Origin: a bacterium
GTDB taxonomy: Bacteria; JAHJDO01
DNA length: 61,736 nt
NCBI GenBank assembly: GCA_030652805.1
Contig: JAUSPT010000092.1
Location: 1 to 61,736, forward strand
Reading direction: 5' to 3'
The notes beneath the pieces are model-generated. The model was not told the DNA's origin. It saw nothing but the letters and a program-made list of their open reading frames with translations, and searched no databases. Below are positions 17,310-53,635 of this stretch, piece after piece. Position 1 is the first letter of the stretch; each line of letters starts with the position of its first letter. The translations under genes and the position numbers were made by a program.

Positions 17310-20300
17310 TTGAATAAGTTCAGAGTCTTGAAGTCAGTATTCTTTTTTCTATGTTGTACAAGTTTGCTGGTTGGAATATCTTTTTCTTCTATATATAGTG
17401 ATGTAAACTTGGCTAAAGTCGCTCAAGAAGTAGATGAGCAATATATAAAGACTATAGTTTCTGATTTATCTAATCTTAAATCTAGGGTTCCTGGTTATCA
17501 AGGTAATGAGGAAGCTTCAGAATATATAGAAAATATTTTCCAAAAGATTGGCCTTGAGAATGTAAAAAGGGAAAGTTTCCCAGTCACGGTTCCAGTAGAT
17601 AAAGGAGCCTCTCTAGTTATTTCTAATACCAAGAAAGAACTTTCGCTGTATTGTTTATGGCCAAATCTTATCAGAACTCCCACTCTTTCACCGTCTGGTA
17701 TAAGGAGCCAAATAATTGATGGGAAAACAGGAAACTTTGAGGATCTTAACGGCAAGACCATTCAGGATAGGATTGTCTTACTTGATTTTAACTGTGGAAA
17801 TAGATGGCTCGATATTTCAATGCTTGGAGCCAAGGCGTTTATTTTTATAGAGCCAGAGGATACAACGCGTGTTGAAGCTGAGAAGAAGTATCTGAATCTG
17901 CCATTAAATATACCAAGATATTGGATATCCAGGCAGGATGGGCTTTATCTCAGAAAATTAATAGAAGAAAGTGATGAGAAGTTAGATGTTCATCTTAAGG
18001 CAAAGATGGACTGGGAAAGAAAGATTACTAAAAATGTGCTTGGATGGATTTCTGGAAGCGATTCTGAACTCAAAAAAGAAGTTATAGTTATAGAGGCATA
18101 TTATGACAGTATCTCTGTTGTACCTTCTATAGCACCTGGAGCGGATAGCGCGTGCAGTATAGCCGCTCTTATTCAAATAGCAAAGATTCTCCGTAACAAC
18201 CCTCCTTCAAGAACAATTCTGTTTTTAGCTACGTCTGGACATTTCTTAGAACGACGTGGGATAGATGCCTTTTTGCAGGCCCACTGTAGATTGGAAGAGC
18301 CGTTTAAAAGCAAGATTACAGACCCCATGGATATAAAGCTTTTCTTGTGTATAGATTTATCAAGCCATAACGACGAGCTAGTAATATATCATGATGCGGA
18401 TGAAAATCCTGGATATTTTGCTAGTTTTGGCAAGACATTTATGTCTTTTGCAACTGAAATTGGGAAAATATTCAGTAAATCCAGAGACAATGTTCTAATT
18501 AATGGCATTAGCCCGGAAAAGGGACTGAACATAGATTCAATAACTGTTGGAGAGATTAATACAGACGCAGGCATAATAGGAGCATGTGGAATCCCTGCGC
18601 TTTGTTTTATAACTGCGCATGACAGCAGAAGATTAGTAGATACTCCATTGGATAGACTGGAAACTGTTGACTTCAAAAATCTTCTTACACAGGTTAAGCA
18701 TATTAGTTGTCTATTCTATATGGCATTGAATAAAAAGGAATTTTTTCCTGATGTTAGGGCTAAGTTTAAGGATAATTTATGTACTTTGAAAGGTAGCATA
18801 GTAACTTTTGATCCTAGAAAAAGCTTTGTGCCTGATCAGCCTGTTTCAGGAGGATTAGCTGTTTTGAAAGTGCTTGATAGACCCGTGGAAGTTCTTAAGG
18901 GCGTAAGACCAGAGTTGATAGAACTAACAGACGAGAATGGTTCGTTTGAAATATCTAGGACAGAAGGGGGTGAATCCCGATTAGAAGCATACTCTTTGGA
19001 CTCTGAATCCGGGGATATAGTCTATGCTCCGGATATGGGTGTTTATGGAGATGAAATGTATCCAATAGAATTTGAAATAGATTGGAGACTTGTCGAACAT
19101 ACTATTGTTCTGTTTCCATGTATAGCCACTAATGTTTACGAACTATTAGATCCAAGGTATTTGACGCAGCTTGATAATATTGATGTATTTGAAGAAGGGA
19201 ATAGTATTCCTTCTTCATATGGGTATTCATTTATAAAGGTAAAACCTTGGGATTGGACGTCTTCTATAGAAACATACGGGGTGGTTTATTCCTCTCCAAA
19301 TACACGTATAAAGCTTGCTTTTGGAGCAGGCCCTCTTGGAATGCGACTGCTCTTGTTAAATTCAAAAGACACGGAAAATAAAATTCATTCTGAAGGCGAT
19401 GGATTTTTGATATCTAAAGATGGAACAATCGGAAATACTTCATTTCAGGCAGCAAAGGATATGCTGCTTTTAAACCAGTTCAGAATGGAGAACCTAGAAA
19501 AATATGGAATATCGAATGACAGGCTTTGGCATTTACATAAAAAAGCTGAACAAGCTCTGCAAAAGGCTACTAAGTCTAAGGAGAATAAAAAATGGGATGA
19601 ATTTGTAAAGCATTCAAGAAGAGCAGTTGGAATAGAATCCAGGGCGTATCCAGACGTAAAGGCTACAGCAAATGATGTAATAAAAGGTATTATATTCTAT
19701 CTTGCACTTCTTATCCCATTTGCTTATTTTATGGAGCGGTTGCTATTTGGGTTTGTAGATATTAAAAAGCAAATTGGCGGAGTAGCAGGAATATTTATCG
19801 CGATATATATGATCATGCGTTTTGTTCATCCTGCATTTAAGTTAACAAATGCCCCAGAAATAATTCTTCTTGCATTCATTATAATGATGCTTTCTGTGAT
19901 TGTTTTATTGATAATAAGCTCTAAATTTGAAGAGCGAATGCAGAATTTAAAGCGAAAAATGACAAGGTCTTATGAAAGCGATGTTAGCAGAGCAAGTGCA
20001 TCAGCTGCTGCATTTTCCTTGGGTATTTCTAATATGAAAAAACGTAAGATTAGAACTTTATTAACCTCTACAACACTTATTCTTCTCACATTTACAGTGC
20101 TTTCATTCACGTCAGTAAAGTCATTTATGAAGTTTAATCAAGTTCCTAGGGATAATAATCCTCTTTACGAGGGAGCCATGATAAGAGATCGAACTTGGAA
20201 TCCGATAGAAGAACCTGCTTATGAATATATAAAAGCTGAATTCAAGGATGTAGCTGATGTGTCTCCAAGAGCATGGTATATTCCTAATAAGGATTTTACC

Positions 20301-21824
20301 AAAGGTAAGAGCTACATTAAGGTGAATAATGGGGATAAATCTGCTTATGTACTTGGATTAATTGGCTTAACTCCTCAAGAAGAAAGAATTACAGGTATTA
20401 GTAAGTATCTTAAGTATGGAGACTGGTTCAATGATAGAGATAAGAATGTATGTATTATTTCAGATAAGTTGGCAGAGTTAATATCAATATCTTCAAAGGA
20501 TGTAGGGAAAAGCTATATACAGATGTTTGGAAATAAACTATTAGTTAAGGGAATATTTAATGCGTCAAGTATGTTTGATCTTAAGGATCTTGACGATGAG
20601 AGGCTGACTCCCGTTGATTTTATGATTACAGATCCTGAATCAATAAAGAAGTTTAAACAGCCAAAAGCTGAAAGGATGAGTATTGGTGGAGGAGGCACGT
20701 TAGAATCATTTAATCATTTAGAATATGAAAATGTTGTTATGGTTCCATACAAATTAGTGCAAGAGCTGGGAGGCACTATACAGTCAGTTGCGATTAAGTT
20801 TAATGAAAGTGTAGATGTAAGAGAAAACATAGAGAATTTTATATCCAGATTGGCAGTTACTCTTTTTGCAGGAATTGATGGAAAGGTTGCAATATATAGT
20901 TCATTAGGACTTAGCTCATTGTCAGGTATGGGGAATTTGTTTATACCAATTCTTATTGCTTCTCTGATAGTTCTTAACACTATGATGGGATCTGTATATG
21001 AGAGATTTAAAGAGATTGGAATTTATTCCTCAGTTGGGCTAGCTCCTGTTCATATTTCAGCCTTATTTATAGCAGAATCATGTGTATATGCCGTCTTGGG
21101 AGCTGTATCAGGTTATTTGCTTGGACAGGTAGTAGCAAAGGTTTTAACTGTTTTTGACTTATTAGGGGGATTAACTCTAAATTATTCCTCTACCTCAGCA
21201 GTAGCTTCTACATTAATTGTAATGGCAACAGTGATTTTATCTACTATCTATCCTGCTAGAAAGGCAGCAGAACTCGCTGTCCCTGATGTAACTAGAAAAT
21301 GGGAAATTCCCGAGCCAATAGGAGATAATTGGGAATTTGATTTTCCATTTACAGTAAGTGGCACAGAAATTCTGGGGTTGAATGTGTTCTTGAAAAATTA
21401 TTTTGCATCCTACGAAGAGGAGTCTGTAGGAGATTTCTATACAAATGGAGCAAATCTGTATACTTCCAAGGAGAAAGAAGAAACAGGGTATGCATTAAAG
21501 ACAAGAACATGGTTGGCTCCATTTGATCTAGGAGTGAGTCAGGATTTTCAGTTAAAAGCAATTCCTGCAGGAGAATACAATGTGTATAATATAAAGTTAT
21601 TGATTGTGAGACTAAGCGGAGAAACAGGTGCGTGGAAGAGATTAAACAGGCATTTTCTGGACACATTGAGAAAACAGTTTCTTGTGTGGAGAACCATTAG
21701 TCCAGAGATAAAGAATGAATACAAAGAAGAAGGAGAGAAACTAGAACTAAAATTCGAAGCACGAAGCACGAAATACGAAACAATATCAAATGACAAAAAT
21801 ACAAATGCTCAAAACAATGTTTAG
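17310..21824 (+). CDS. Giant M28-like peptidase domain fused to FtsX-type ABC permease
   Basis: A 1504-residue protein. It has a signal peptide/anchor (about 8-28), an M28/PA-type ectodomain (about 40-480), a carboxypeptidase-regulatory-like beta segment, three helices near 790-880, then an FtsX/MacB permease: helix at about 920, a periplasmic domain, and three C-terminal helices with VYERFKEIGIYSSVGL. The M28 zinc site looks damaged: EAYYDS has Tyr where a ligand His is expected, and SGHFLERRG lacks the usual Glu pair, while PGAD and ITAHD remain. It may bind peptides without cutting them. The final residues (FEARSTKYE and beyond) are encoded by a dispersed repeat. OPT, PqqD-like, FtsX and ATPase genes follow on the same strand. 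Confidence 0.82.
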   Translation: MNKFRVLKSVFFFLCCTSLLVGISFSSIYSDVNLAKVAQEVDEQYIKTIVSDLSNLKSRVPGYQGNEEASEYIENIFQKIGLENVKRESFPVTVPVDKGASLVISNTKKELSLYCLWPNLIRTPTLSPSGIRSQIIDGKTGNFEDLNGKTIQDRIVLLDFNCGNRWLDISMLGAKAFIFIEPEDTTRVEAEKKYLNLPLNIPRYWISRQDGLYLRKLIEESDEKLDVHLKAKMDWERKITKNVLGWISGSDSELKKEVIVIEAYYDSISVVPSIAPGADSACSIAALIQIAKILRNNPPSRTILFLATSGHFLERRGIDAFLQAHCRLEEPFKSKITDPMDIKLFLCIDLSSHNDELVIYHDADENPGYFASFGKTFMSFATEIGKIFSKSRDNVLINGISPEKGLNIDSITVGEINTDAGIIGACGIPALCFITAHDSRRLVDTPLDRLETVDFKNLLTQVKHISCLFYMALNKKEFFPDVRAKFKDNLCTLKGSIVTFDPRKSFVPDQPVSGGLAVLKVLDRPVEVLKGVRPELIELTDENGSFEISRTEGGESRLEAYSLDSESGDIVYAPDMGVYGDEMYPIEFEIDWRLVEHTIVLFPCIATNVYELLDPRYLTQLDNIDVFEEGNSIPSSYGYSFIKVKPWDWTSSIETYGVVYSSPNTRIKLAFGAGPLGMRLLLLNSKDTENKIHSEGDGFLISKDGTIGNTSFQAAKDMLLLNQFRMENLEKYGISNDRLWHLHKKAEQALQKATKSKENKKWDEFVKHSRRAVGIESRAYPDVKATANDVIKGIIFYLALLIPFAYFMERLLFGFVDIKKQIGGVAGIFIAIYMIMRFVHPAFKLTNAPEIILLAFIIMMLSVIVLLIISSKFEERMQNLKRKMTRSYESDVSRASASAAAFSLGISNMKKRKIRTLLTSTTLILLTFTVLSFTSVKSFMKFNQVPRDNNPLYEGAMIRDRTWNPIEEPAYEYIKAEFKDVADVSPRAWYIPNKDFTKGKSYIKVNNGDKSAYVLGLIGLTPQEERITGISKYLKYGDWFNDRDKNVCIISDKLAELISISSKDVGKSYIQMFGNKLLVKGIFNASSMFDLKDLDDERLTPVDFMITDPESIKKFKQPKAERMSIGGGGTLESFNHLEYENVVMVPYKLVQELGGTIQSVAIKFNESVDVRENIENFISRLAVTLFAGIDGKVAIYSSLGLSSLSGMGNLFIPILIASLIVLNTMMGSVYERFKEIGIYSSVGLAPVHISALFIAESCVYAVLGAVSGYLLGQVVAKVLTVFDLLGGLTLNYSSTSAVASTLIVMATVILSTIYPARKAAELAVPDVTRKWEIPEPIGDNWEFDFPFTVSGTEILGLNVFLKNYFASYEEESVGDFYTNGANLYTSKEKEETGYALKTRTWLAPFDLGVSQDFQLKAIPAGEYNVYNIKLLIVRLSGETGAWKRLNRHFLDTLRKQFLVWRTISPEIKNEYKEEGEKLELKFEARSTKYETISNDKNTNAQNNV

Positions 21825-25674: not shown

Positions 25675-26778
25675 GTGATATTCGGGATTATATTGTTATC
25701 TGTTGTTCTTATATGGCATGTTTCCTATACGAATTTGCACAAAAGGCTGGCAATCTTGCGTCGCGAGCATGAAAAATTGGAGCTGCTTTTAATGGATAAC
25801 CGTAGGCAGTCATATATCTTGAATGTTATAAAGCAAGCTATAGATGTATTTGGAGAGGATCAAAATTTAGAACAAGTATTAAGAAGAATAGTAGATGCTG
25901 TAGCTAAGATATTACAGGTAGATGTAATTATTCTACAACTATATAGTGATGAACAACAAGATTTCTTTATGCGGGTTATAAAAGGAAGAAAAGAATTGAC
26001 TCTTGGAGAGCAGATAAAAGAAGATGTAATAAATAAGGGGCAGTCACATCTGATAAATGATTTATCATCTTTTCCCAAATATAAGTTTTTGAGTGATCAG
26101 GGCATAAAGTCTTTGATTGTTGCGCCTTTGCGAAGGAGAAAAAAGGTTATAGGATTAATAGGAGGATTAGCAGATAAGCCGCGTGATTTTACCGGAGAAG
26201 AGCTGGATCTTCTAACAACTGTTGCAAGTCAGGCAGGGTTATTAGCAGAAAATGCTCAGCTATTAGAAAAAACAAAGTTGCTTTCAATTACAGATGGATT
26301 AACTAATTTATATAATCATCGCCATTTTCAGGAGAAACTAATGGTTGAAGTAAAGAGAGCAAAAGAGGAGAAGAAGCCTCTTTCACTTATAATGGGAGAT
26401 GTTGATGACTTTAAGCATTATAATGATACTAATGGTCATCCTGCCGGTGATGAAGTGCTGCGACAGATTGGAAGGATATTAAAAAATAATACTAAAAGAG
26501 GGGATATTGTTGCCCGTTATGGCGGGGAAGAGTTTGTTATAATCCTTCCGGATACCTCAGGAAAGAGCGCTAAAATTGTAGCAGAAAAGTTGAGAAAATC
26601 TGTTCAAGAATATAAGTTTGTTAACGAAGAAAGTCAGCCAGGCGGTAAAGTTACAATAACTTTTGGACTTGCAGATTATCCTGAAGACGCAGATTCAGCA
26701 AGAGGGGTTATGAAGAAAGCAGATAATGCTCTATATATGGGCAAAGAGTCTGGTAAAAATCAGGTTGTTGCTGCCTAA
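25675..26778 (+). CDS. GAF-GGDEF diguanylate cyclase
   Basis: A 367-residue protein: one N-terminal helix (about 1-18), a short coiled coil, a GAF domain (about 55-200) and a GGDEF domain with YNHRHF, MGDVDDFKHYNDTNGHPAGDEVL and RYGGEEFVII. The active-site GGEEF is intact, so it should make cyclic di-GMP. The usual RxxD product-inhibition site before GGEEF reads KRGD and may be lost. Start is GTG 25675. It ends 3 bases before the convergent lptG gene. A PilZ-MlaF fusion about 8 kb away is a possible c-di-GMP receptor. Confidence 0.93.
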   Translation: MIFGIILLSVVLIWHVSYTNLHKRLAILRREHEKLELLLMDNRRQSYILNVIKQAIDVFGEDQNLEQVLRRIVDAVAKILQVDVIILQLYSDEQQDFFMRVIKGRKELTLGEQIKEDVINKGQSHLINDLSSFPKYKFLSDQGIKSLIVAPLRRRKKVIGLIGGLADKPRDFTGEELDLLTTVASQAGLLAENAQLLEKTKLLSITDGLTNLYNHRHFQEKLMVEVKRAKEEKKPLSLIMGDVDDFKHYNDTNGHPAGDEVLRQIGRILKNNTKRGDIVARYGGEEFVIILPDTSGKSAKIVAEKLRKSVQEYKFVNEESQPGGKVTITFGLADYPEDADSARGVMKKADNALYMGKESGKNQVVAA

Positions 26779-26781
26779 AAC

Positions 26782-27867
26782 TTATTTTCTTGCCTTAATT
26801 AGTATTCCGAGATGAAGAAGTGCAAAAATGATATTAGCCAACCAGGCAGCCAGCCAGGGATTAATAGCTCCATCTCTTCCAATCGCTAATGTAATAGGAA
26901 TTGCTATACCATAATAGATAAATCCAATACTTAGAGCAATTCCAATGCTTTCCTTTTTCCCCTTTTTGCCCATAACTAGCATTATAGAAAAAGCGATAAT
27001 TATCATTACAAGATTTGAAAATGGAAGCGATATTCTTGAATGCAGCTCTGTCAATTCCCTATATGGGTAGCATTTGATTTTCATTAAACTTTTAATGCGG
27101 AGCTTTAGAAGCTTTATGTCTAGATACGGTAATTCAGCTTGTTTAATTAAAAGATCACGAGGTGTTTCTGTAATGGCAGATACTAATTGTTTAAAGTTTT
27201 CGGTTTTAATAATAGAGCCCTCTGTATCAAATACACGGATCAGCCCATTAAAAAGTATCCATTTCTTATTTATCCATTTTGCCTCTTTAGCATTAATTGT
27301 ATTTTTAATATTATAATTTTTATCATACTGAGTTATTTTAATATTATGCATATATTTATCTTTAGCATTAAAAAAACCCACGTGAACGATTCTGTTTTTT
27401 ACATCCAAAAATGCGAAATCAGTCCATACTTTCTTTTTAAGTTGGTATTGTTTGCCAATATTAACTTTCCATATATAGCGCGCTTTTGACATTGATTTGG
27501 GAGCAATATTCATACTTACAGGTATAGATGCTAAACTTATAATTGCAGAAACCAACAAAAATGGCATTAAAATTTTTGTAGAGCTTACTCCACTAGCCCA
27601 CAATGCTGTTAGCTCATTATATTTATTAAGATAGTTCAAGATTATTATTATGCCTATAAGAGTTGAGATGGGCATGATTTTTATATATATATCTGGCAAC
27701 AGGTTTCTGTAATAGTTTAAAATGTCAGTGAATTTTGCGCCTTCTGCTACAAATTCGTCTGTATTACTTATCAGGTCTATTATCAGATAGAGACATATAA
27801 ATGCTGTTAGGCAGTAGAATAACGAACACAAAAAGCTTTTTATAAGATAGCGATCTATAACTTTCAT
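26782..27867 (-). CDS. lptG: LPS export permease LptG-like (YjgP/YjgQ family)
   Basis: A 361-residue protein with the LptF/LptG layout: three N-terminal helices, a periplasmic beta-jellyroll region (about 115-255) and three C-terminal helices. VIDRYLIKSF, LNKYNELTALWASGVS and a final PWLAAWLANIIFALLHLGIL fit LptG. With LptF and LptB it extracts LPS from the inner membrane. Its partner lptF lies 4.1 kb upstream in transcription, separated by a restriction-modification cassette. Confidence 0.9.
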   Translation of the reverse strand: MKVIDRYLIKSFLCSLFYCLTAFICLYLIIDLISNTDEFVAEGAKFTDILNYYRNLLPDIYIKIMPISTLIGIIIILNYLNKYNELTALWASGVSSTKILMPFLLVSAIISLASIPVSMNIAPKSMSKARYIWKVNIGKQYQLKKKVWTDFAFLDVKNRIVHVGFFNAKDKYMHNIKITQYDKNYNIKNTINAKEAKWINKKWILFNGLIRVFDTEGSIIKTENFKQLVSAITETPRDLLIKQAELPYLDIKLLKLRIKSLMKIKCYPYRELTELHSRISLPFSNLVMIIIAFSIMLVMGKKGKKESIGIALSIGFIYYGIAIPITLAIGRDGAINPWLAAWLANIIFALLHLGILIKARK

Positions 27868-28609: not shown

Positions 28610-28685
28610 ATTTCTTCCCCAAAAATTTTAACCATTGCTTTCTCGCAAATCTCAAATTTTTTTTTAATGACTTTTCCAAGATCAC
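28602..28685 (-). CDS. Possible 27-residue coupled mini-ORF
   Basis: A basic frame from GTG 28685 to TAA 28604-28602 links the type IIG gene to the membrane protein gene. GGAG lies 5 bases before the GTG, which overlaps the enzyme stop, and its end overlaps the next ATG. It begins MILEKSLKKNLRFARKQW. It may serve for translational coupling, or be chance. Confidence 0.25.
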   Translation of the reverse strand: MILEKSLKKNLRFARKQWLKFLGKKYE

Positions 28686-31600
28686 TTCTCCTCAAATTCA
28701 ATGACTTCCCTTTCAATCTCAGGATACAGATTATCTATCTCTTTTTGTATTTCAATGGTCTTTTTTAGGGCTGTGGATATCTGGCAATAGTGTTTTATGT
28801 CATCAAGAGACAAAGTCCTTTTCTTTCTATCTTTCAGCCATTTGTTTAATACTTGATAGCCTCCGATTTGATATTCCCAGATTTCTTTTTCTATTCCTTC
28901 AAAATATTGGTTTTGGTTGATATAAATTCTCGGCAGGTCACAACCTGCCTCTACAGGTTCGTATATCAATTTTTCTACTCTGTTATCACCCTTACCCTGA
29001 AACTTTGCAATTGATGTGTCAAGCTCCGCTGATTTAAGCAGGTGCAGGTCAGAGAGTCTCTTGCCATATTTAGCTATTTTACTGAACAGTTCATAATTTT
29101 TCGTAAAAGGAACTCGTGGGAAATCTATCTTTAAAAATTCAGCGTATTTTGCGCGGTAGATATTGGAATAGAGAACTGCGTATATGTAATAAAAAATTTC
29201 TTCGGGTAAAAGTGTTTTATTAAAAGCGTTATTTAATTGATCAACTATTGCCTGAGAAAGATTTGGCCTTTTCACTTTATAATTTTCTTGAGGCTCAAAA
29301 AGCATCATCACCGTGCCTGAAGACTTCTTTTTTGGAGTAGGTTTTTCTGGATATAGATAGAGGGGGAAGAGATTAGAAATTGAAACAGCAGAAGTTATTG
29401 AATGAGCATCTATTATTGAACTGGTTACAAAAACAGGTTGTATTCCTGATTTATCCATTTGTCTCGCAGTAATCAACCCCAAATTCTCCTGCATCATATG
29501 TCGCATGACTCTCTTTACTGTTCTCCAGACGACTGAATCATGATAAAAAATCCACTGAATATCAAAAGGACGGTAAATTACTGGGAACACAAGATCATTC
29601 AAATCAGAATCAGAAACATCTTGTAACATTGTCCATGCTTTTCTTATATTCCAGCCTTTCTTCTTCCTTATTTGAGAAAATTCATGAAGCTCGTTGTCAG
29701 AGTATTTGCTGTGCTTGAACAGACGTATTCTATTGATTAATGTATTTTTATTTGTGTCTATGACAAAATGGTCTCTGGCCGTAGTCATACCAACGCCATT
29801 TAGTGAAAAAACGTCGGTTATTTTCGGAAACTTTTCATACTGTTCCAGAAGTTTTTCATCGCGTGGAATAAAAAGATAAAATTCCTGCTTTGGAATTATT
29901 TTTTGCCATTTAGTTGTTTTGATATCATTATTTGCGAGCCAATCGTATTTTTTCTTTCTCAAGCCCCATATCTCAGAATGGAAAACTTTTCCATCTTTTT
30001 TGTTATTATAGCCTTTTTTCTTTATAAACAACGCAATGGCTGTGCCTTGACGTATGTCAAACACGTTTTCATCCTTTGAACCGTCCTTGCATTTTTCCTT
30101 TTTCAAACTGTTACCGTGCAAATCAAGCAGATATATTTCATTAAAACTGTTCATCAGCGACCTGCGCATCCCTCTGAAAGTGGGATTGTCAAGATAGCTG
30201 TGATTAGTGATAAAACCCATGACTCCTTCGCCAGCCTGATCTATCTTCCACTGGGCAAAACGGATAAACTTTACATAATCATCCTGTAGCCATTTTGGAT
30301 TTTTTTCTCCAAGAGGTTTACCATCAACTTCATAATATGTCTTAATTTCCTTAGAAATCCACTCGCCGACATTAGAGGAATGTCCTGAGTAAGGCGGATT
30401 GCCAAGGATAACTAAGATCGGGATTTTCTTCTTTACTTCTCCTGCCAAGCGGGATTCTTCAGCTAATGACGACATGCCCGGAAGATAGCTCTGCTCCAAT
30501 TCTTTCATTTCAAGAGTATTTGTAAGGTAGAGTTTGAATCGTTCATCTTTTTTTAGCTTATATCCAAGTTCTTCCAATAGAAAAGACATCTTCAAATGAC
30601 CCACAGCATAAGGAGCCATCATTAGTTCAAAAGCGTAGAAATTTTTAAGAATATGCTCTTTAATAAACTTTTCCTTGGAGCCTTCACCGTATTTAAAGAC
30701 AAATTCTTCTACAGCCAATTTAGATGCCTCTGCTAAGAAAGTTAATGTCCCAGAGGCGGGGTCAAGAACGCGAACACTATCGGAAGAAAAGCCTCCCGGA
30801 CTTTCAAAATGCTCTTTCAGGATAATATTAAGAGAGCGGGCGATGTAGGAGACCACTGGTTCCGGCGTGTAATAAACTCCTCTGCGTTCTCGTTCGGAAG
30901 GATTATACTCTATCAAAAACGTCTCATAGAAATGGATAATGGGGTCTTTTCCTTTGCCTTCGTGAAAATACTTATGCAGGATTTTATTTACATCTGCAAC
31001 TGCCAAAACCTCTGAAATATCGTCCACAATCCATTCCATTTGTTTGGGTAAATCACCACGGGAAATGAACTCAAATACATCTCTTAAGATTCCAATAGTA
31101 GGAGGAATATTGTCATAGGCTAATTTCCGATTGAAGCCGTTTTCTGAGCGTGTGCGAGCGGCAAATAATCCATAAGTAATAGTTTGGGAATAGAGGTCAG
31201 CAAAGTCTTCCTTGGTAAGTCCGGAGATGAGATATTTTTGAAACGTCTCATAAAATGCGAGAATATGTCCTTTGCCCTTCTCTGTTTCCTCTTTTAATTC
31301 TTCAGCAATGACTTGGTCCTTTAAGAAACGCGTTCGTTTAGCCAGCTCAGTGGCCAAGGACTTTGCCGTATATGTTCTGGGAAGGGAGAAAGAGAAAAAT
31401 TGATCTAAGAGATTGAGGAATTCTTCTTTCTTTTCTACTGGTGGCGTCGTCTTCAGTTGATGGACAATAAAAGGCCGTGCAACCAAAACTTTATTAATCA
31501 ATTGTCCATTACGATATAAACGAAATTCAAAGAAGTTAGTCAGAATCAGATTAGGGAAGGTTTTGCGGTATCTTTTAAGCTGTTCAGTATCTTCGATATA

Positions 31601-31867
31601 ATCAAGGCTTTTCTCTGTCGGCTTCTTCGCTTCTATGTAACCCACAATATTTTGCTTTCCGTCCCAGATACGGAAATCAGGATTTCCTGCCTCGGTCTTC
31701 TTTGGCAGTGTAGTTATTTGAATCCCTTTTTTGCCTGTAGATTCAGCGTAGCTCTTAAGCAATTCATCAAGACAGGAATAGAAGCTTTCTTCTCTTGCAT
31801 CGCCCCTTTGGGCAACATTGAGTATCTTTTTGAAATATTCTTTAAGGTTACAGTTCATCTCGCCCAT
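28682..31867 (-). CDS. Type IIG-like restriction-modification enzyme
   Basis: A 1061-residue fused enzyme. The N terminus holds a PD-(D/E)xK nuclease: D64 in NPDFRIWDG and E79-A-K81 in GYIEAKKP. A gamma-type N6-adenine methyltransferase follows with motif I DPASGTLTFLAEA (about 369-381) and catalytic NPPY (490-493). The rest should include a target-recognition domain. No helicase motifs are seen, unlike longer type ISP enzymes. It is probably a single-chain enzyme that both cuts and methylates. A second in-frame ATG lies at 31858. The gene is flanked by REP-like elements between lptF and lptG. Confidence 0.88.
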   Translation of the reverse strand: MGEMNCNLKEYFKKILNVAQRGDAREESFYSCLDELLKSYAESTGKKGIQITTLPKKTEAGNPDFRIWDGKQNIVGYIEAKKPTEKSLDYIEDTEQLKRYRKTFPNLILTNFFEFRLYRNGQLINKVLVARPFIVHQLKTTPPVEKKEEFLNLLDQFFSFSLPRTYTAKSLATELAKRTRFLKDQVIAEELKEETEKGKGHILAFYETFQKYLISGLTKEDFADLYSQTITYGLFAARTRSENGFNRKLAYDNIPPTIGILRDVFEFISRGDLPKQMEWIVDDISEVLAVADVNKILHKYFHEGKGKDPIIHFYETFLIEYNPSERERRGVYYTPEPVVSYIARSLNIILKEHFESPGGFSSDSVRVLDPASGTLTFLAEASKLAVEEFVFKYGEGSKEKFIKEHILKNFYAFELMMAPYAVGHLKMSFLLEELGYKLKKDERFKLYLTNTLEMKELEQSYLPGMSSLAEESRLAGEVKKKIPILVILGNPPYSGHSSNVGEWISKEIKTYYEVDGKPLGEKNPKWLQDDYVKFIRFAQWKIDQAGEGVMGFITNHSYLDNPTFRGMRRSLMNSFNEIYLLDLHGNSLKKEKCKDGSKDENVFDIRQGTAIALFIKKKGYNNKKDGKVFHSEIWGLRKKKYDWLANNDIKTTKWQKIIPKQEFYLFIPRDEKLLEQYEKFPKITDVFSLNGVGMTTARDHFVIDTNKNTLINRIRLFKHSKYSDNELHEFSQIRKKKGWNIRKAWTMLQDVSDSDLNDLVFPVIYRPFDIQWIFYHDSVVWRTVKRVMRHMMQENLGLITARQMDKSGIQPVFVTSSIIDAHSITSAVSISNLFPLYLYPEKPTPKKKSSGTVMMLFEPQENYKVKRPNLSQAIVDQLNNAFNKTLLPEEIFYYIYAVLYSNIYRAKYAEFLKIDFPRVPFTKNYELFSKIAKYGKRLSDLHLLKSAELDTSIAKFQGKGDNRVEKLIYEPVEAGCDLPRIYINQNQYFEGIEKEIWEYQIGGYQVLNKWLKDRKKRTLSLDDIKHYCQISTALKKTIEIQKEIDNLYPEIEREVIEFEEK

Positions 31868-32008: not shown

Positions 32009-33100
32009 CTACTTATGACTATAACTAGTTTTGAAAATTAAATATACACCCGCTGCCGCAATTATAATATTTGGTAGCCACATTGCTACAGCAGGTGGCA
32101 TGTAGCCTTTTTGCGCTATTATTGATCCTGATATCATTAATAAGTAGTGAAGAAGAATAACAGGCATACCTATTCCTATAGCTGCAAATTTACTGCTGCG
32201 GTGATATCTAATACTCAAGGAAATGCCGATTAGGATAAATGGAATAAATGAAAAAGAAAGAGAAGTTTTTCTGTATAATTCCACATATAATTTATTCGTA
32301 TTAGCCTTTGCATTTGTAATTTTGTTTTTCAAATCACTAGAAGTCATTTCAATAGTACTCTTTTCTAACTTAATCGCATCATAAGCAATAGAGCTAAAAT
32401 CTATAGGGTATATTTTAAAAGAGCCTTTAAAATATTCGTTTGGATTTTTGGGGTTGAACTCTTCAGTAAACACATCCTCTAATTTGAGTACTAGACTTTG
32501 GTCTTTTGGGTTAGATATAAAACGTCCTTGTTTTGCAGTTATTGTTCTTGCAGAAGAGTCCGGCTTTAGCTGGTAAATTACCACATTGTACAGAATATTA
32601 TTTCTAATTTTATCTGCATAAAAAGTGTATCCTTTGAATATCTTCATCGGTTTTTTTTCTTCCAGAAGAGCTGAGGGATTCAAAATACCGATTTCTTTGA
32701 ATAATTTTTTTGAAGAGAAGTTTGCCTTAGGAGCAATTGTATTATTTAACGGCAAAGAGACTAGACACAATATTATAGCAACAGCAAGGATGGGAGGCAT
32801 GATTATTCTATAAGGATTTATCCCATTTGCTTTCATGGCAGTTATTTCATTGTCAGAAGAGAGCCTGCCAATAGAGGTAAGAGTAGCCACCAGCATTGCC
32901 ATTGGCAGGGTATAGGTTAGGATAAAAGGGAGAAGATACACAACTAGTTTTAATACGCTAAGCGTACTAATTCGCTCACCAACAAGCATATTTGCCAGTC
33001 TAAACATGTTTCCCAGAAATAGAATAAAGGTAAAGACGCACAGGCTTGAGAAGAAGGGGTCTATAAATTCTCTTAGGATATAGCGTGTTAATATTCGCAT
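32009..33100 (-). CDS. lptF: LPS export permease LptF-like (YjgP/YjgQ family)
   Basis: A 363-residue protein with three helices at each end and a periplasmic beta-jellyroll between. It contains RILTRYILREFIDPF, the family block LSSDNEITAMKANGINPYRI, and FSFIPFILIGISL. LptF-LptG-LptB2 drives LPS to the outer membrane. The gene follows mlaD by 19 bases on the minus strand; lptG would be expected next but is displaced by the restriction cassette. Confidence 0.9.
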   Translation of the reverse strand: MRILTRYILREFIDPFFSSLCVFTFILFLGNMFRLANMLVGERISTLSVLKLVVYLLPFILTYTLPMAMLVATLTSIGRLSSDNEITAMKANGINPYRIIMPPILAVAIILCLVSLPLNNTIAPKANFSSKKLFKEIGILNPSALLEEKKPMKIFKGYTFYADKIRNNILYNVVIYQLKPDSSARTITAKQGRFISNPKDQSLVLKLEDVFTEEFNPKNPNEYFKGSFKIYPIDFSSIAYDAIKLEKSTIEMTSSDLKNKITNAKANTNKLYVELYRKTSLSFSFIPFILIGISLSIRYHRSSKFAAIGIGMPVILLHYLLMISGSIIAQKGYMPPAVAMWLPNIIIAAAGVYLIFKTSYSHK

Positions 33101-33119: not shown

Positions 33120-34376
33120 TTATCTTGCTACGCCCATTAAGCCAACAAGGTATTTGAGATCCTGGTCATTATATTCTATTTTTACACCTGCTATAAATGA
33201 CGGTCTGTCCAGAATATCTTCTGCTCCAGCAACTATATAGTAGCTTTTATCTTCCCATATTTTATAGCTCAGACTTGTTCTAAGAAAGAATGGAGAGCTG
33301 TAAACAGCACTATGCCCTTCAACTGTAATGCTGGTTTTTTTATCAGGAAGTATATAGTCCGCTCCCAGCCCTGCGCCTGAGTTTATCAAACCGCCTCTGA
33401 CTGTCAGATTATTGTCAAAGAATTTTAATGCAAGCTGTACATCATATTCAATTTTATGTCTATTTTCTTTCGAATTGCCTGTGCCTAGCTTGCTTGCTCC
33501 CACAAGATAATATTTATCCTCAGCAGGTTCAATCCTTATATAACCTTTATTTCTAAAAGCTCCCTCTCTGGCAGAATATACGCTTTCGACGCCTAACCAA
33601 GTTTTTATTTCTCTCATTTTGCCCAGTACATCTTTTGCACCTTCAGAGGCAGCCTTTGCTGATTTCATAGTTTTTCTAGCGTCATTATACAACTCCTCGT
33701 CATAAATTAGTTTCCCAACAGTACCTTCTCCTTTATCAATTTTTTTTACAATTTTTTTAATTGTTTTAATTGTCTCTTTTGCTTCTATACCAACCTCTTG
33801 GAATTCATCCATAATTTTTTGTGCTTTATCAGACGTTTCCTTTGCAGACTTCATAAACTCGGAAGTATTCTTATAAAGTTCTTCGTCAGTTAAGAGTTTT
33901 CCTGCTGTTCCCTCTCCCTTTTCAATTTTCTCCACAAGTTTCCCAATACTATCTGATATTTCCCCTGCTTTAGTAAAGAGCTGATTCAGCTGATAGGAAT
34001 CTCTACCATCAACAATACTCCCGGGCTTTAGAACAGAGCTATCTGTAGTTCCCATTGTAATGCCAACATATTTGCCTCCCATGAGACTTACATCGTTAAT
34101 GCTGAATATAGAGTTTTGCCTGAGTATTGTTTCTTTTTTTATCCACAAAGAAACCTGTATTTTATTATCTTTTATATCAAAGCCTTCAACACGTCCTACC
34201 TTCATTCCAGCCAGTGTTACCGTATCTCCTCCTTTGAGCCCGCCTATCTGGCTAAAGTTAGCTTTTATTATATATCCATTTTCAAACAATCTGATTTTCC
34301 CTATCCAAAAGGTTAGAGCCATAAGCAGTACGATGCCTACAAAAAATGCTATACCGACCTTCTTTTCAATATTCAA
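33120..34376 (-). CDS. mlaD: MlaD-like MCE protein with repeated helical linker and beta-rich C terminus
   Basis: A 418-residue protein. One N-terminal helix (about 7-25) anchors an MCE domain (about 36-120: FSQIGGLKGGDTVTLAGMKVG). Two 61-residue-spaced repeats follow (KGEGTAGKLLTDEELY at about 153, KGEGTVGKLIYDEELY at about 215), predicted helical. The last 150 residues are rich in alternating strands (YDVQLALKFF, LTVRGGLINS, FFLRTSLSYKI), suggesting an outer-membrane beta-barrel. That would let one protein bridge both membranes; barrel status is inference. It is downstream of the MlaF and MlaE genes and carries phospholipids in the family model. Confidence 0.88.
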   Translation of the reverse strand: MNIEKKVGIAFFVGIVLLMALTFWIGKIRLFENGYIIKANFSQIGGLKGGDTVTLAGMKVGRVEGFDIKDNKIQVSLWIKKETILRQNSIFSINDVSLMGGKYVGITMGTTDSSVLKPGSIVDGRDSYQLNQLFTKAGEISDSIGKLVEKIEKGEGTAGKLLTDEELYKNTSEFMKSAKETSDKAQKIMDEFQEVGIEAKETIKTIKKIVKKIDKGEGTVGKLIYDEELYNDARKTMKSAKAASEGAKDVLGKMREIKTWLGVESVYSAREGAFRNKGYIRIEPAEDKYYLVGASKLGTGNSKENRHKIEYDVQLALKFFDNNLTVRGGLINSGAGLGADYILPDKKTSITVEGHSAVYSSPFFLRTSLSYKIWEDKSYYIVAGAEDILDRPSFIAGVKIEYNDQDLKYLVGLMGVAR

Positions 34377-34395
34377 AACATACCTCCATATTCTT

Positions 34396-34423
34396 TAAAC
34401 CCACGATTTAAATCGTGGGTTTA
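34396..34423. repeat. Perfect 28-base palindrome between mlaF and mlaD
   Basis: TAAACCCACGATTT is followed directly by its exact reverse complement. It lies 20 bases before mlaD and 10 after the PilZ-MlaF stop, inside the operon. It may form an mRNA hairpin that protects the transcript or tunes downstream expression; on the plus strand it is followed by a T-rich tract. It may also be a mobile REP-type element. Confidence 0.7.
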
Positions 34424-34432
34424 GTTCCGTTT

Positions 34433-35566
34433 TTAAGTTATGGGACCCACATTACTTCCTGTAATAAACTGTTTGACAATGGGATTATCCGTATTTTTAA
34501 TTTCCTGAACAGTTCCCACCTGAATAATTACGCCATTATATAACATTGCTATGCGATCTGCAATCTGATATGTGCTGACCATATCATGAGTTATTACTAT
34601 TGATGTGGTATTTAATGTATTTTCAAGCTCCAAAATAAGTTTATTAATAGAATCTGCTCTAACTGGGTCAAGTCCCGTTGTAGGTTCATCATAGAGTATA
34701 ATTTCGGGGTCCATACTAATTGCTCTTGCAAGCCCAACTCTCTTTCTCATACCTCCACTCAAGTCAGCAGGTTTTAATCTTTGTGCACCGTCTAATCCAA
34801 CTATTCCAAGCTTATTTTTGACTATTTTATCCATATCTTCTTCGCTCAGGTTTGTGTGCTCTTGCAATCCCAGTTTTATGTTTTCTTCAACAGTAAGAGA
34901 AGCAAGTAATGCAGCAGATTGAAAAAGCATGCCGAATTTTCTTCTGACATTATCAAGTTCATTATCCGAAATTTTTGAAATGTCAACACCGTCCACTTCT
35001 ACTATGCCAAAATCGGGTTTTATAAGACCAATTATGTGTCTTAAAAGCACGGTCTTGCCGCATCCGCTACATCCAATAATAACAATTGTTTCTCCACGTC
35101 TGATTTTAAGATTAACGCCTTTTAATATCTTTTTATCTCCAAAACTTTTGTGCAGTTCACTAATCTTAATTATTATTTCTTTAGTTTTTACAAATTCAAT
35201 AATTCTTTGCTTTGCGTTTTTCTCTATTTGCGCAAATTCCAGTCCTGTTTCATAGTATTTTTCTCCACTTGAAATCACCATTGTTCTCTGCCGTTTCACA
35301 ATACCACTTGCAGATATTTCTTCTTTACTACTGCCAGGAAGGGAGAACCTTAAATGTATCAGAGAATTAGCTTTCATCTGCTTTTTAGTCTTAAAACAGA
35401 TGCCTCCACCGCTTATATCTTTGGATTTTCTTTCTTCTTGGTGTGCAAAGGCTGTATGTTCGGGAGGCTCAGTGCTTATTGATACGTTTATTTCAATTGG
35501 CAAACGAGAATATCTTCTGCGTTCATGAAAACTAATTTTTTCATCCAGCTTGTCTATTTCTATCAT
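34433..35566 (-). CDS. mlaF: PilZ domain fused to MlaF-type ABC ATPase
   Basis: A 377-residue fusion. Residues about 12-125 are a PilZ domain with both c-di-GMP motifs: RxxxR at R17-R21 in RRRYSR and DxSxxG at D50-G55 in DISGGG. Residues about 131-377 are an MlaF ATPase: Walker A GCSGCGKT (165-172), MLFQSAALLASLTVEEN, LSGGMRKRVGLARAI, LYDEPTTGLDP and ITHD. It should power MlaE-mediated lipid movement. The fusion suggests control by cyclic di-GMP, since all binding residues are present; that is inference. The gene starts 4 bases after mlaE and precedes mlaD. Confidence 0.93.
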   Translation of the reverse strand: MIEIDKLDEKISFHERRRYSRLPIEINVSISTEPPEHTAFAHQEERKSKDISGGGICFKTKKQMKANSLIHLRFSLPGSSKEEISASGIVKRQRTMVISSGEKYYETGLEFAQIEKNAKQRIIEFVKTKEIIIKISELHKSFGDKKILKGVNLKIRRGETIVIIGCSGCGKTVLLRHIIGLIKPDFGIVEVDGVDISKISDNELDNVRRKFGMLFQSAALLASLTVEENIKLGLQEHTNLSEEDMDKIVKNKLGIVGLDGAQRLKPADLSGGMRKRVGLARAISMDPEIILYDEPTTGLDPVRADSINKLILELENTLNTTSIVITHDMVSTYQIADRIAMLYNGVIIQVGTVQEIKNTDNPIVKQFITGSNVGPIT

Positions 35567-35570
35567 TTTA

Positions 35571-36344
35571 TTAGCTCTTTTGAAAAAACATTCTGGTTAA
35601 GAAGTAATCAAACACTATAATCAATAGAAACGAAATAACAACAGAGGCAGTAGTTGATTTACCAACACCTTCAGCTCCGCCTCTGGTTCTAAATCCCTGA
35701 TAACATGATATTATTGAGACAACTATGCCAAAGACAAATGCCTTTACCAATCCGCTATATACGTCCTTTATTGTTAAGAAGTTTTTAATGCTGTCTAGGT
35801 ATGTACTGGTGTCTACGCCTATCTGAAATTTTGATACAATAAATCCTCCTGCCATGCCTACGCAATCTGAGTATATAACCAGAATGGGAAGCATAATTAT
35901 GCATGCCAGAAATCTGGGCATTACCAAGTATCTGATAGGGTTTATTGCCAGTGTTTTAAGCGCGTCTATCTCCTCAGACACCTGCATTGTTCCAAGTTCT
36001 GCTGTCATTGATGCTCCGACTCTTCCTGCAACTATAAGCCCGGTAAGCACAGGCCCCATTTCTCTGCACATGGATGCTGATACTATTGATCCTATCAGGT
36101 GCTCTATATGATATTTTGAAAGTTCAGTTCCTGTCTGGAGTGCGAGCACCATTCCTGTGAAAATCGACATTAAAGATGTGATAGGAAGCGTATAAACGCC
36201 CATTTCCAGCATTTGTTTTGCAATAGGTTTTAGATTTTTAAATGCTGATTTACACCAATATACAGTTTTTGCCAGTAATATTAAGACTTCCCCTGTATAA
36301 TCCAAAGCGTCTGCAATTCTGCTATATATACTTGGCTTCATCAT
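35571..36344 (-). CDS. mlaE: MlaE-type lipid transport permease
   Basis: A 257-residue permease of the MlaE family with typical GLIVAGRVGASMTAELGTMQVSEEIDALKTLAINPIRYLVMPR and five helices. MlaE forms the membrane core of the complex that moves phospholipids between the membranes. It is the first gene of the mlaE-mlaF-mlaD-lptF unit on the minus strand and has the tRNA genes upstream. Confidence 0.95.
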   Translation of the reverse strand: MMKPSIYSRIADALDYTGEVLILLAKTVYWCKSAFKNLKPIAKQMLEMGVYTLPITSLMSIFTGMVLALQTGTELSKYHIEHLIGSIVSASMCREMGPVLTGLIVAGRVGASMTAELGTMQVSEEIDALKTLAINPIRYLVMPRFLACIIMLPILVIYSDCVGMAGGFIVSKFQIGVDTSTYLDSIKNFLTIKDVYSGLVKAFVFGIVVSIISCYQGFRTRGGAEGVGKSTTASVVISFLLIIVFDYFLTRMFFQKS

Positions 36345-36373: not shown

Positions 36374-36447
36374 TACGCCTGGCCCGATTCGAACGGGCGA
36401 CCTTCAGATTCGAAGTCTGCCGCTCTATCCAGCTGAGCTACAGGCGC
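36374..36447 (-). tRNA. tRNA-Arg (UCG anticodon)
   Basis: The minus strand folds as a tRNA: acceptor GCGCCTG pairs with CAGGCGT, the D arm has AGCTCAGCTGGATAGAGC, the anticodon stem-loop CAGACTTCGAATCTG gives anticodon TCG, and the T arm contains GTTCGAATC. CCA is not encoded. TCG reads CGA arginine codons. Confidence 0.95.
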
Positions 36448-36451
36448 AGGT

Positions 36452-36529
36452 TGGGGTGAGTGACGGGAGTCGAACCCGCGACTTCCAGAACCACAATCTG
36501 GCGCTCTAACCAACTGAGCTACACCCACC
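36452..36529 (-). tRNA. tRNA-His (GUG anticodon)
   Basis: The minus strand gives acceptor GTGGGTG with an extra 5' G pairing to discriminator C73, the hallmark of tRNA-His, a D arm AGCTCAGTTGGTTAGAGC, anticodon loop TTGTGGT (anticodon GTG), T arm GGGTTCGACTCCC, and an encoded CCA. It lies 4 bases upstream of tRNA-Arg, so both are probably one transcript. Confidence 0.95.
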
Positions 36530-51048: not shown

Positions 51049-51750
51049 ATGGATTTAAAAGAGCTAAAACAAAAACTTCAACAAATAAAAAAAGAAGGAT
51101 TCATCAAAACCCACCGCATTAGTGACACGGGAATTGGTAAAACCTTAGAAGATTTACTCGATATACCAGAGAACAATATTCCTCTCCACGATATTGCAGG
51201 TGTTGCTGAACTAAAAGCGTACCGCAAAGAAGCAAAATCCATGTTGACACTTTTTACGCTAGAACCATTACCAAAAGGCGGAGATAGAGATAGATTGCTG
51301 CTAGATAATTTTGGTTACTCTCGCAGAGATAATAAACGTTCAAAAGAGTTACACAGCACGCTTTCATGCAAAAGATACAATGCCCAAAAATTAAGATTAT
51401 CCGTTAGCAAAGATAAGATCAAAGTTAAAGGAGAAGGAAAACGATTAAATATCTATTGGGACATTGAATCGGTAAAAAAGAAATTTGAAGCTAAATTACC
51501 GGCTCTTGTTTATGTTTTGGCTGATAAAAAAATCATAAATTCGTTTGAACATTTTCACTTCAATGAAGCTTATTTATTGAAGGATTTTAGTTTTGAATTA
51601 TTTAAGAAGATGGTCAAAAAAGATCAGATAGTAGTTGATTTTAGAATGTATTATAGACCTAATGGGACGGTAAGAAATCACGGAACAGGTTTTAGGGTTA
51701 AGATCAATAGACTGTATGACTGCTTCAAAACCAAGATTAGATTGGTTTAG
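51049..51750 (+). CDS. MvaI/BcnI-family restriction endonuclease
   Basis: A 233-residue nuclease of the MvaI/BcnI family. The catalytic residues fit D48, E54 and K56 in LHDIAGVAELKAYRK; further family blocks are SKELHSTLSCKRYN and YYRPNGTVRNHGTGFR. MvaI cuts CCWGG and BcnI CCSGG, so a CC-N-GG type target is likely but not determined. It is co-directional with the XRE gene, and its stop overlaps the stop of the convergent LexA-methyltransferase by 3 bases. Full length for the family. Confidence 0.9.
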   Translation: MDLKELKQKLQQIKKEGFIKTHRISDTGIGKTLEDLLDIPENNIPLHDIAGVAELKAYRKEAKSMLTLFTLEPLPKGGDRDRLLLDNFGYSRRDNKRSKELHSTLSCKRYNAQKLRLSVSKDKIKVKGEGKRLNIYWDIESVKKKFEAKLPALVYVLADKKIINSFEHFHFNEAYLLKDFSFELFKKMVKKDQIVVDFRMYYRPNGTVRNHGTGFRVKINRLYDCFKTKIRLV

Positions 51751-53612
51751 TTCTTCCTCAAAACAACGATGCTTTCCTTTGTCATTGTTTCTTCCAGTTC
51801 TCCTGCGATATTTGTAGGAGAATTTTTTGAAGGCATTCTTTTGCCGGGGATATTTCTAACAAAGATATCTTCACAGGTAAAACCAATTTTTTCGCATAAT
51901 TCTGCGATGATGAAATCAGTCGGTATGCGTACCTGCTTTACTAATCGATTGCCGATGACTAGGCAAAAATATTTTTTTCTTTTCAATATCTCATAGGATT
52001 TCTTTAGACATTCATTTAAATCTATATAAAAGCTTAATACATCCCTTGCTCTCTTTTTATCCATTTCTTGAATTCTTTCTAAAGATTCCCTTAAGTGAGA
52101 AGATTCAAGAGAATGAAGCAGATTGCCAGTTGGTTTACCTCCCAATAATTTATTGTCAACGCCTGATGCAGTGTTTGGATCTTCAAAAATGTCAATCCAC
52201 TGAGCAGATAATCTTGAGAATTGTCCATATGCCACAGTTGTTCTGCTGTCGCCATAGGGCGGAGATGTTATAATGCAATCTATGGAATCGCTTTTTATTG
52301 TGCTGATTAGAGAAGTATCCTCATAGATGGGTTTAGTCCATGTATTTTTGTCAACTTCTTGATAGAACTTTCTCATCCCTTCAATATTTAATTCGGTTTT
52401 TTTTCTAAAAATGTCAAGCACATTAGGATTGTGATTTTTCAGTTTATCAGCTTTTATTCGCACAAGTTTAAATTCCCCGTTCTTTGTATTTGAAGAAAGT
52501 CTAACTGCTTCGCTAAAGGAAACTAAAAAAAAGTTTTTAATCTTTTCATTTTTTGTATCATTAATAGCCTTTTTCAATTTTGCCAATTTCAAAATAACTT
52601 TCTCTTTAAACCAAAAGTCCACATTCATAAAGTCTGGCAGTACGATTTTATCGTTTTTTATATGGTCAAACCTATTAAGTAAATTGAAATATTCTTTTGT
52701 AAGCGCAGATGGGTTTATTTCAGTTGTTTTTACTTTTGCTAAGAATATAGCAAATGGATTTAGATCAATTCCGTAAGCATTTCTACCTAGTAACCTACTC
52801 TCAACTAAAGCGGTTCCAGAGCCGCAAAAGATATCGCAGATAGTATCGCCTTTCCTGCTGTACGTCTCTATCAGACGTCTTGCGACCTGAGGGATGAACA
52901 TTGCTGGATAACCGTGCAAACCATGAGTATAAGATTTTGTTTTCTCACCTCTATAATCCCATGAATAGTCAATGCGCCTTTTTAGTTTTGCATCCTTATA
53001 TTTATCTTTTTCTAAAAGAGGTTCTAGATTTCTAATTATCTTTACAACGATACCTCTAATTTCGACCTCCTGCCTATAAATTGGCAATAGCGTAAGATTT
53101 GCAGGTTGTAATCTGAATTGGTTATTTTCTCGGTAAAGTTTTTTTAATGTGGCTTCATTTTCATCGATTATCGCTACAACGGTTTGGCCATTGTCAGCAG
53201 TTTCTTGCTTTTTAATAACAACTATATCGCCATCAAAAATGCCCTCTTCAGTCATGCTATCACCAGTAACGCGCAAAGCATAATATTTACCTGCCCTGCT
53301 AGTTTCATTTCTGGAAAGAGTGATTGTTTTATCGGATAGTTCAATTGCTTCAATTGGCTGGCCGGCAGCAATAGTGCCGACTATGGGTATTTCGATAGAT
53401 TGGGCATTCTTTTTAGGAATCAATGCTCTAGGTTGATTATCTTCTTTGTGTAAGTAACCCATATTCTGAAGAGCTTGGACGTGATAGTGAGCAGTTGAAA
53501 CGGAGGAAAGCAGTAAGTGTTTCTTGATTTCCTCAAGAGAGGGAGCGTAGTCGTGCTTAGTGATATATTTTTTTATGTATTCCAATACTTGCTTTTGTCG
53601 TTTTGTGAGCAT
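51747..53612 (-). CDS. LexA repressor fused to a TSPPY-type DNA methyltransferase
   Basis: A 621-residue fusion. Residues 1-196 are a complete LexA: a winged helix (TKRQKQVLEYIKKYITKHDY and SSVSTAHYHVQALQNMGYL), cleavage site Ala83-Gly84 in TIAAGQP, Ser119 in TGDSM and Lys157 in ATLKKLY. Residues about 225-621 are a DNA methyltransferase with motif I DIFCGSGTALVES (260-272) and TSPPY (449-453), the type seen in N4-cytosine enzymes. GGAGG before ATG 53612 sets the start; a GTG at 53618 lies inside that ribosome site. It is convergent with the endonuclease and presumably protects its sites. RecA-driven self-cleavage and damage control are inferred. Confidence 0.93.
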   Translation of the reverse strand: MLTKRQKQVLEYIKKYITKHDYAPSLEEIKKHLLLSSVSTAHYHVQALQNMGYLHKEDNQPRALIPKKNAQSIEIPIVGTIAAGQPIEAIELSDKTITLSRNETSRAGKYYALRVTGDSMTEEGIFDGDIVVIKKQETADNGQTVVAIIDENEATLKKLYRENNQFRLQPANLTLLPIYRQEVEIRGIVVKIIRNLEPLLEKDKYKDAKLKRRIDYSWDYRGEKTKSYTHGLHGYPAMFIPQVARRLIETYSRKGDTICDIFCGSGTALVESRLLGRNAYGIDLNPFAIFLAKVKTTEINPSALTKEYFNLLNRFDHIKNDKIVLPDFMNVDFWFKEKVILKLAKLKKAINDTKNEKIKNFFLVSFSEAVRLSSNTKNGEFKLVRIKADKLKNHNPNVLDIFRKKTELNIEGMRKFYQEVDKNTWTKPIYEDTSLISTIKSDSIDCIITSPPYGDSRTTVAYGQFSRLSAQWIDIFEDPNTASGVDNKLLGGKPTGNLLHSLESSHLRESLERIQEMDKKRARDVLSFYIDLNECLKKSYEILKRKKYFCLVIGNRLVKQVRIPTDFIIAELCEKIGFTCEDIFVRNIPGKRMPSKNSPTNIAGELEETMTKESIVVLRKN

Positions 53613-53635
53613 TCCCACCTCCGCAGAAAAGATTC

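Follow-up and report, generated by a model that had tools for sequence, protein, structure and literature searches.

A PilZ domain fused to the MlaF ATPase of a minimal phospholipid transporter: a candidate for direct control by c-di-GMP

In a 61,736-nucleotide stretch of DNA from a bacterium known from metagenome-assembled genomes (MAGs) only (contig JAUSPT010000092.1, hereafter the window), we analysed a gene that joins a PilZ domain to a complete MlaF ATPase. On balance, we favour the reading that its product is the ATPase of a minimal MlaEFD phospholipid transporter carrying a built-in N-terminal receptor for c-di-GMP, by which phospholipid traffic would be regulated. A single open reading frame fills positions 34433-35566 of the minus strand exactly, and the plus strand of this interval contains stops throughout. 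The gene and its parts are as follows.

34433..35566, minus strand: pilZ-mlaF gene, 377 aa, with an ATG start 4 bases past the mlaE stop codon
35189..35524, minus strand: PilZ domain, residues 15-126 (Pfam PF07238, E 4.1e-11)
35504..35518, minus strand: RxxxR motif, R17-RYS-R21, with R16 just before it (from the sequence)
35402..35419, minus strand: DxSxxG motif, D50-I-S52-GG-G55 (from the sequence)
35174..35221, minus strand: predicted C-terminal PilZ helix, residues 116-130, entering the first ATPase strand (AlphaFold2, confidence about 60-67)
34436..35173, minus strand: MlaF nucleotide-binding domain, residues 132-377 (pLDDT mostly >90)
35051-35074, minus strand: Walker A, GCSGCGKT, residues 165-172 (from the sequence)
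34748-34762, minus strand: signature LSGGM, residues 269-273 (alignment of 28 proteins)
34685-34702, minus strand: Walker B and glutamate, residues 289-294 (from the sequence)
34586-34588, minus strand: H-loop, H327 (from the sequence)

The PilZ domain scored 43.5 bits, above the Pfam cut-off of 22.5. An earlier note on this DNA had described both c-di-GMP motifs as intact ahead of a complete MlaF, and this was confirmed, including the numbering of the motif residues: the Pfam PilZ match is joined to an ATPase with every catalytic motif. The Pfam model ABC_tran covers residues 148-297 (E 2.8e-32), and in the 28-protein alignment all ATPase motifs are present, including the Mla-type methionine in LSGGM, a residue typical of Mla/TGD ATPases (PMC7367683). 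The top NCBIfam model was MlaF (residues 128-376), with 212.8 bits against an equivalog cut-off of 441, a shortfall expected for so distant a lineage; in our reading this cut-off describes the proteobacterial form, and the protein was filed as MlaF-type rather than as that equivalog. When aligned with E. coli MlaF, query residue 376 corresponds to residue 252 of 269, and the E. coli C-terminal 'handshake' tail finds no match, leaving the handshake residues Tyr261, Leu265 and Leu266 (PMC7367683) without counterpart. The top fold matches of the modelled MlaF domain were Mce1 and MlaF chains.

The junction between PilZ and MlaF spans about five residues, with no long linker. In the AlphaFold2 model, PilZ helix 116-130 is followed without a break by the first strand of the ATPase, from residue 131; the PilZ part itself is predicted to contain strands, at a pLDDT of about 44-72 and from a shallow alignment with only four rows over PilZ. 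Between residues 98 and 131 there is no ATG, GTG or TTG codon in frame, so that MlaF appears to be translated only together with PilZ, and its production alone from an internal start was ruled out.

Full-length PilZ-MlaF was found in all four other genomes of the genus that were searched (84-90% identical). The earlier note had named absence of the fusion outside this contig as an outcome that would refute it, and four other species do carry it; the search for the same architecture that the note had proposed succeeded within the genus alone. R17, R21, D50, S52 and G55, together with an ETGLEF stretch, are invariant in all five species.

The genes surrounding the fusion are the following.

35571..36344, minus strand: mlaE permease (Pfam PF02405, E 9.8e-85)
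33120..34376, minus strand: mlaD, 418 aa, with an MCE domain (PF02470), a TM helix, a long helical region and C-terminal strands
32009..33100, minus strand: lptF, the next gene in the conserved operon
26782..27867, minus strand: lptG, split from lptF here by a restriction-modification gene

The gene order mlaE, pilZ-mlaF, mlaD, lptF is shared by all three relatives in which it was read (L039, L040 and L041). The genome, which is 96% complete, contains no clear MlaE besides this one; with one MlaE system there would be no unregulated copy. The same genome gave no match to STAS, STAS_2 (MlaB-type) or MlaC. MlaD is modelled with about ten C-terminal strands (residues 258-403), predicted at moderate confidence to form a barrel; structural matches of its MCE part were with MlaD and Mce proteins, and C-termini of this kind also occur in MlaD of Nitrospirae, Nitrospinota and Endomicrobia loci. 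Given this long MlaD, combining MCE domain, helices and C-terminal strands, and the absence of MlaB and MlaC, the transporter is by its gene content a minimal MlaEFD as described in Veillonella, with a putative sensor added on the ATPase. It is not of the E. coli MlaFEDB type, lacking MlaB, MlaC and the MlaF handshake tail. MlaEFD of Veillonella parvula (PMC10665443) is likewise encoded by an mlaE-mlaF-mlaD operon without MlaB and MlaC, and its MlaD (419 aa versus 418 here) has the same MCE domain, long helical region and C-terminal strands. The two systems differ in that PilZ is fused to MlaF here and is not mentioned for MlaF in PMC10665443, and in their operon neighbours, tolC and tamB in V. 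parvula versus lptF and lptG. The findings in Veillonella favour retrograde movement of phospholipids (PMC10665443), and by likeness the direction may be the same here.

Some features of the locus lie outside the coding sequence of the transporter. A perfect inverted repeat, AAACCCACGATTTAAATCGTGGGTTT (34397-34422), separates pilZ-mlaF from mlaD; the gap measures 56 bases here versus about 13 in L039 and L040, and the hairpin would therefore seem to be particular to this species. Between lptF and lptG lie a single-chain type ISP restriction-modification protein and a small gene (28682-31867, minus strand); since lptG directly follows lptF in L039 and L041, the restriction-modification gene seems to have been inserted in this species. 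Two tandem tRNA genes (36374-36528, minus strand) stand directly upstream of mlaE; they were the only RNA matches in the window, which gave none to a c-di-GMP riboswitch.

E. coli MlaFEDB (PMC7367683) resembles the system described here in its MlaF-type ATPase with LSGGM, its MlaE, its MCE-domain MlaD and a small domain touching the ATPase. There, however, the small bound domain that regulates MlaF is a separate STAS protein, MlaB, seated on the helical subdomain, in addition to a C-terminal tail (PMC7367683, which presents MlaB as a possible regulator), whereas the candidate regulator here is a PilZ domain, by profile match, that is covalently joined to the N-terminal side of the ATPase. Both MlaB and the handshake are needed for assembly in E. 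coli (PMC7367683), and with STAS/MlaB absent from the genome and the handshake tail missing, PilZ could be mainly a structural or assembly module that lends stability to the MlaF dimer or to the way it docks on MlaE, c-di-GMP binding being secondary or absent. We consider this unlikely. MlaF of other phyla aligns only to the same end point, Veillonella has a working MlaEFD that lacks both MlaB and PilZ (PMC10665443), and the operons of the MlaB-less relatives L042 and L044 read mlaE-mlaF-mlaD with no gene in between; nothing obviously needed replacing, and PilZ looks like an addition. The idea that PilZ took the place of a lost MlaB was weakened by the same two operons. A structural role alone would, moreover, leave the five invariant ligand-motif residues unexplained.

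That the PilZ domain binds c-di-GMP is very probable, because it has canonical ligand motifs that do not vary, and because its nearest solved relative is YpfA/MotI, itself a c-di-GMP receptor (PMC7288161). This B. subtilis structure (PDB 5vx6) was the closest to the PilZ family of the genome in a profile search (E 5.7e-9); it is a YcgR-like flagellar clutch without an ATPase, unlike PilZ-MlaF. A phmmer search of the PDB with the PilZ part alone gave no matches. R16, directly ahead of RxxxR and paired with R17, suggests the common intercalated-dimer mode of binding, with a dimeric ligand. Some PilZ domains are protein adaptors that do not bind c-di-GMP (PMC7288161), but the motifs kept in PilZ-MlaF are missing from these.

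It is further probable that c-di-GMP controls the transporter. Two copies of PilZ-MlaF, and hence two PilZ domains, would lie beneath the MlaE dimer. On a rise in c-di-GMP, PilZ would bind the ligand, and its movement could be passed through the short C-terminal helix to the first ATPase strand; as the modelled helix runs straight into the ATPase, the ligand could act without a flexible tether. The outcome would be altered closure of the nucleotide-binding domains, ATPase rate or MlaE assembly, and with it a change in phospholipid traffic between the membranes, for which activation and inhibition are alike compatible. Alternatively, c-di-GMP-bound PilZ might recruit or localise the transporter by contacting a partner such as a complex at the cell pole or one for adhesion, with ATPase activity unchanged. 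C-di-GMP-dependent protein contact is common for PilZ, as for MotI/YcgR on the flagellar stator (PMC7288161), and the many PilZ proteins of this genome could share partners. The very short link to the ATPase nevertheless fits a direct effect better than a flexible tether, and no partner is evident; we regard recruitment as rather improbable.

Across the five species PilZ as a whole changes faster than MlaF, which might be expected of a neutral passenger that has lost c-di-GMP binding or regulation. In pairwise comparisons of the five genus members, however, dN/dS of PilZ was 0.17-0.60, below 1 in every case, compared to 0.07-0.20 for MlaF. The PilZ part is, by this measure, under purifying selection, albeit weaker than that on MlaF, and as the ligand motifs are invariant in addition, a passenger role is very unlikely. 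An assembly or annotation artefact fusing two genes is practically inconceivable, given the identical architecture in five separately assembled MAGs, which excludes chance and assembly error, and the missing internal start codon; no point in its support was found. For a conserved fusion with intact motifs, second-messenger control of MlaEFD is thus the best reading of these sequences; its confinement to a single genus among the genomes searched, the faster change of PilZ and the low confidence of the modelled PilZ part count against it.

Proteins of c-di-GMP signalling were surveyed in the window and in the remainder of the genome.

25675..26778, plus strand: GAF-GGDEF protein with an intact GGEEF site, its gene running towards the operon
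L126:3411-4601, minus strand: Ser/Thr kinase-PilZ fusion, same genome
L125:4445-5287, minus strand: PTS EIIA-PilZ fusion, same genome
L121:1942-2898, plus strand: PilZ-flavodoxin fusion, same genome
L122:2080-3081, minus strand: FHA-PilZ fusion, same genome

A nearby active GGDEF cyclase gene had been put forward alongside the fusion. The gene does end 7.66 kb away and does retain its GGEEF site (its inhibitory-site position reads KRGD, not RxxD), but it lies convergently on the opposite strand and carries little weight. Two relatives have it about 3.5 kb away, adjoining lptG; the distance of 7.7 kb here is explained by the restriction-modification gene between lptF and lptG. Since the relatives are very close, this linkage by synteny alone tells little, and since the genome holds four clear GGDEF proteins (plus a weak one) and at least 12 PilZ matches, the neighbouring cyclase is no special evidence. 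EAL domains were not found in the genome, so that c-di-GMP breakdown may use HD-GYP. By the domain composition of its members, the PilZ repertoire is unusually promiscuous, and two YcgR-like proteins adjoin a GGDEF gene. One further PilZ-like protein (L125:2775-3197, minus strand; NRREYIR ... DICEGG) lies outside the Pfam matches of the genome and has Cys for Ser in DxSxxG.

The search was extended beyond the genus with a profile that covered PilZ and ran into the first part of MlaF, the PilZ and MlaF pieces having been joined for searching only. Against 385 genomes, the end-to-end matches were the five genus members only, the other matches listed covering one half, and three more phylum searches (6, 2 and 132 genomes) did not find the fusion; about 515 whole genomes were profile-searched altogether. 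We also scanned 84,980 species genomes with a pattern-based method that would overlook diverged fusions; this gave 80 loci, with full-length fusions in the genus alone, and recovered three of the four other genus carriers, MAGs called CSMAG. These negatives cover the genome collections searched. At the loci from outside the genus, the MlaF part alone was matched, save at L072, which matches query residues 74-370, yet its N-terminus is not PilZ. Long open frames 5' of mlaF (for example at L014, L026, L028 and L048) were likewise rejected as PilZ; we read them as mlaE, the adjacent gene, or as ORFs in another frame. Nor was mlaF seen to have a separate PilZ gene next to it at any of the 75-odd non-genus loci, within flanks of up to 8 kb and with a custom PilZ profile of limited sensitivity. 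The genus appears to be the sole member of its phylum among the genomes searched, as these include no relatives at any rank between genus and domain.

PilZ and MlaF are each known, and their combination appears to be new: no open-access paper was found that describes PilZ joined to MlaF or another ABC ATPase, in agreement with the earlier note, whose author knew of no well-described fusion. OpuA/OpuCA-type ABC importers carry CBS domains on their ATPase that are bound by c-di-AMP; they too have a cyclic-dinucleotide receptor fused to an ABC ATPase, but nucleotide, fold, ATPase end and substrate all differ. CsdK1 and CsdK2 of Myxococcus xanthus (PilZ-DnaK; PMC10313047) similarly fuse a PilZ domain with c-di-GMP motifs to an ATPase, in their case a chaperone instead of a membrane transporter. 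In the cellulose synthase BcsA, a membrane export machine under direct c-di-GMP control, binding of c-di-GMP to the PilZ domain relieves autoinhibition (PMC7288161); BcsA is a glycosyltransferase with a C-terminal PilZ, as opposed to an ABC transporter with an N-terminal one. Pfam lists 221 PilZ architectures (PMC7288161).

The regulation of Mla/MCE lipid transporters is an open question, and control of the active level of MlaB is called one in PMC7367683. The conserved fusion suggests that the genus may use c-di-GMP to set lipid traffic between its two membranes. We see an even chance that it represents the first direct covalent control of an MCE/Mla transporter by a second messenger, in which c-di-GMP would set lipid traffic and perhaps vesicle release, PilZ being the general switch module of this lineage, placed on a lipid ATPase, a protein kinase, PTS EIIA, a flavodoxin and an FHA protein. 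Such control would tie the messenger of sessile and motile life to the lipid balance of the outer membrane, given that V. parvula forms about 17-fold more vesicles once mla is lost (PMC10665443). With a putative c-di-GMP receptor covalently attached to the ATPase, regulation becomes testable in a purified three-component system with one defined ligand, for which the small proteins, sharp predictions and obvious point mutants are well suited.

Elsewhere in the window, a 623-aa protein (51747-53618, minus strand) fuses a complete LexA, with DNA-binding domain and S24 peptidase, to an N6/N4 DNA methyltransferase, and its gene adjoins one for an MvaI/BcnI-family restriction endonuclease (51049-51750, plus strand), a pairing that suggests an SOS-linked restriction-modification system. 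A 1504-aa open reading frame (17310-21824, plus strand) combines an M28 peptidase region with an FtsX-like permease C-terminus.
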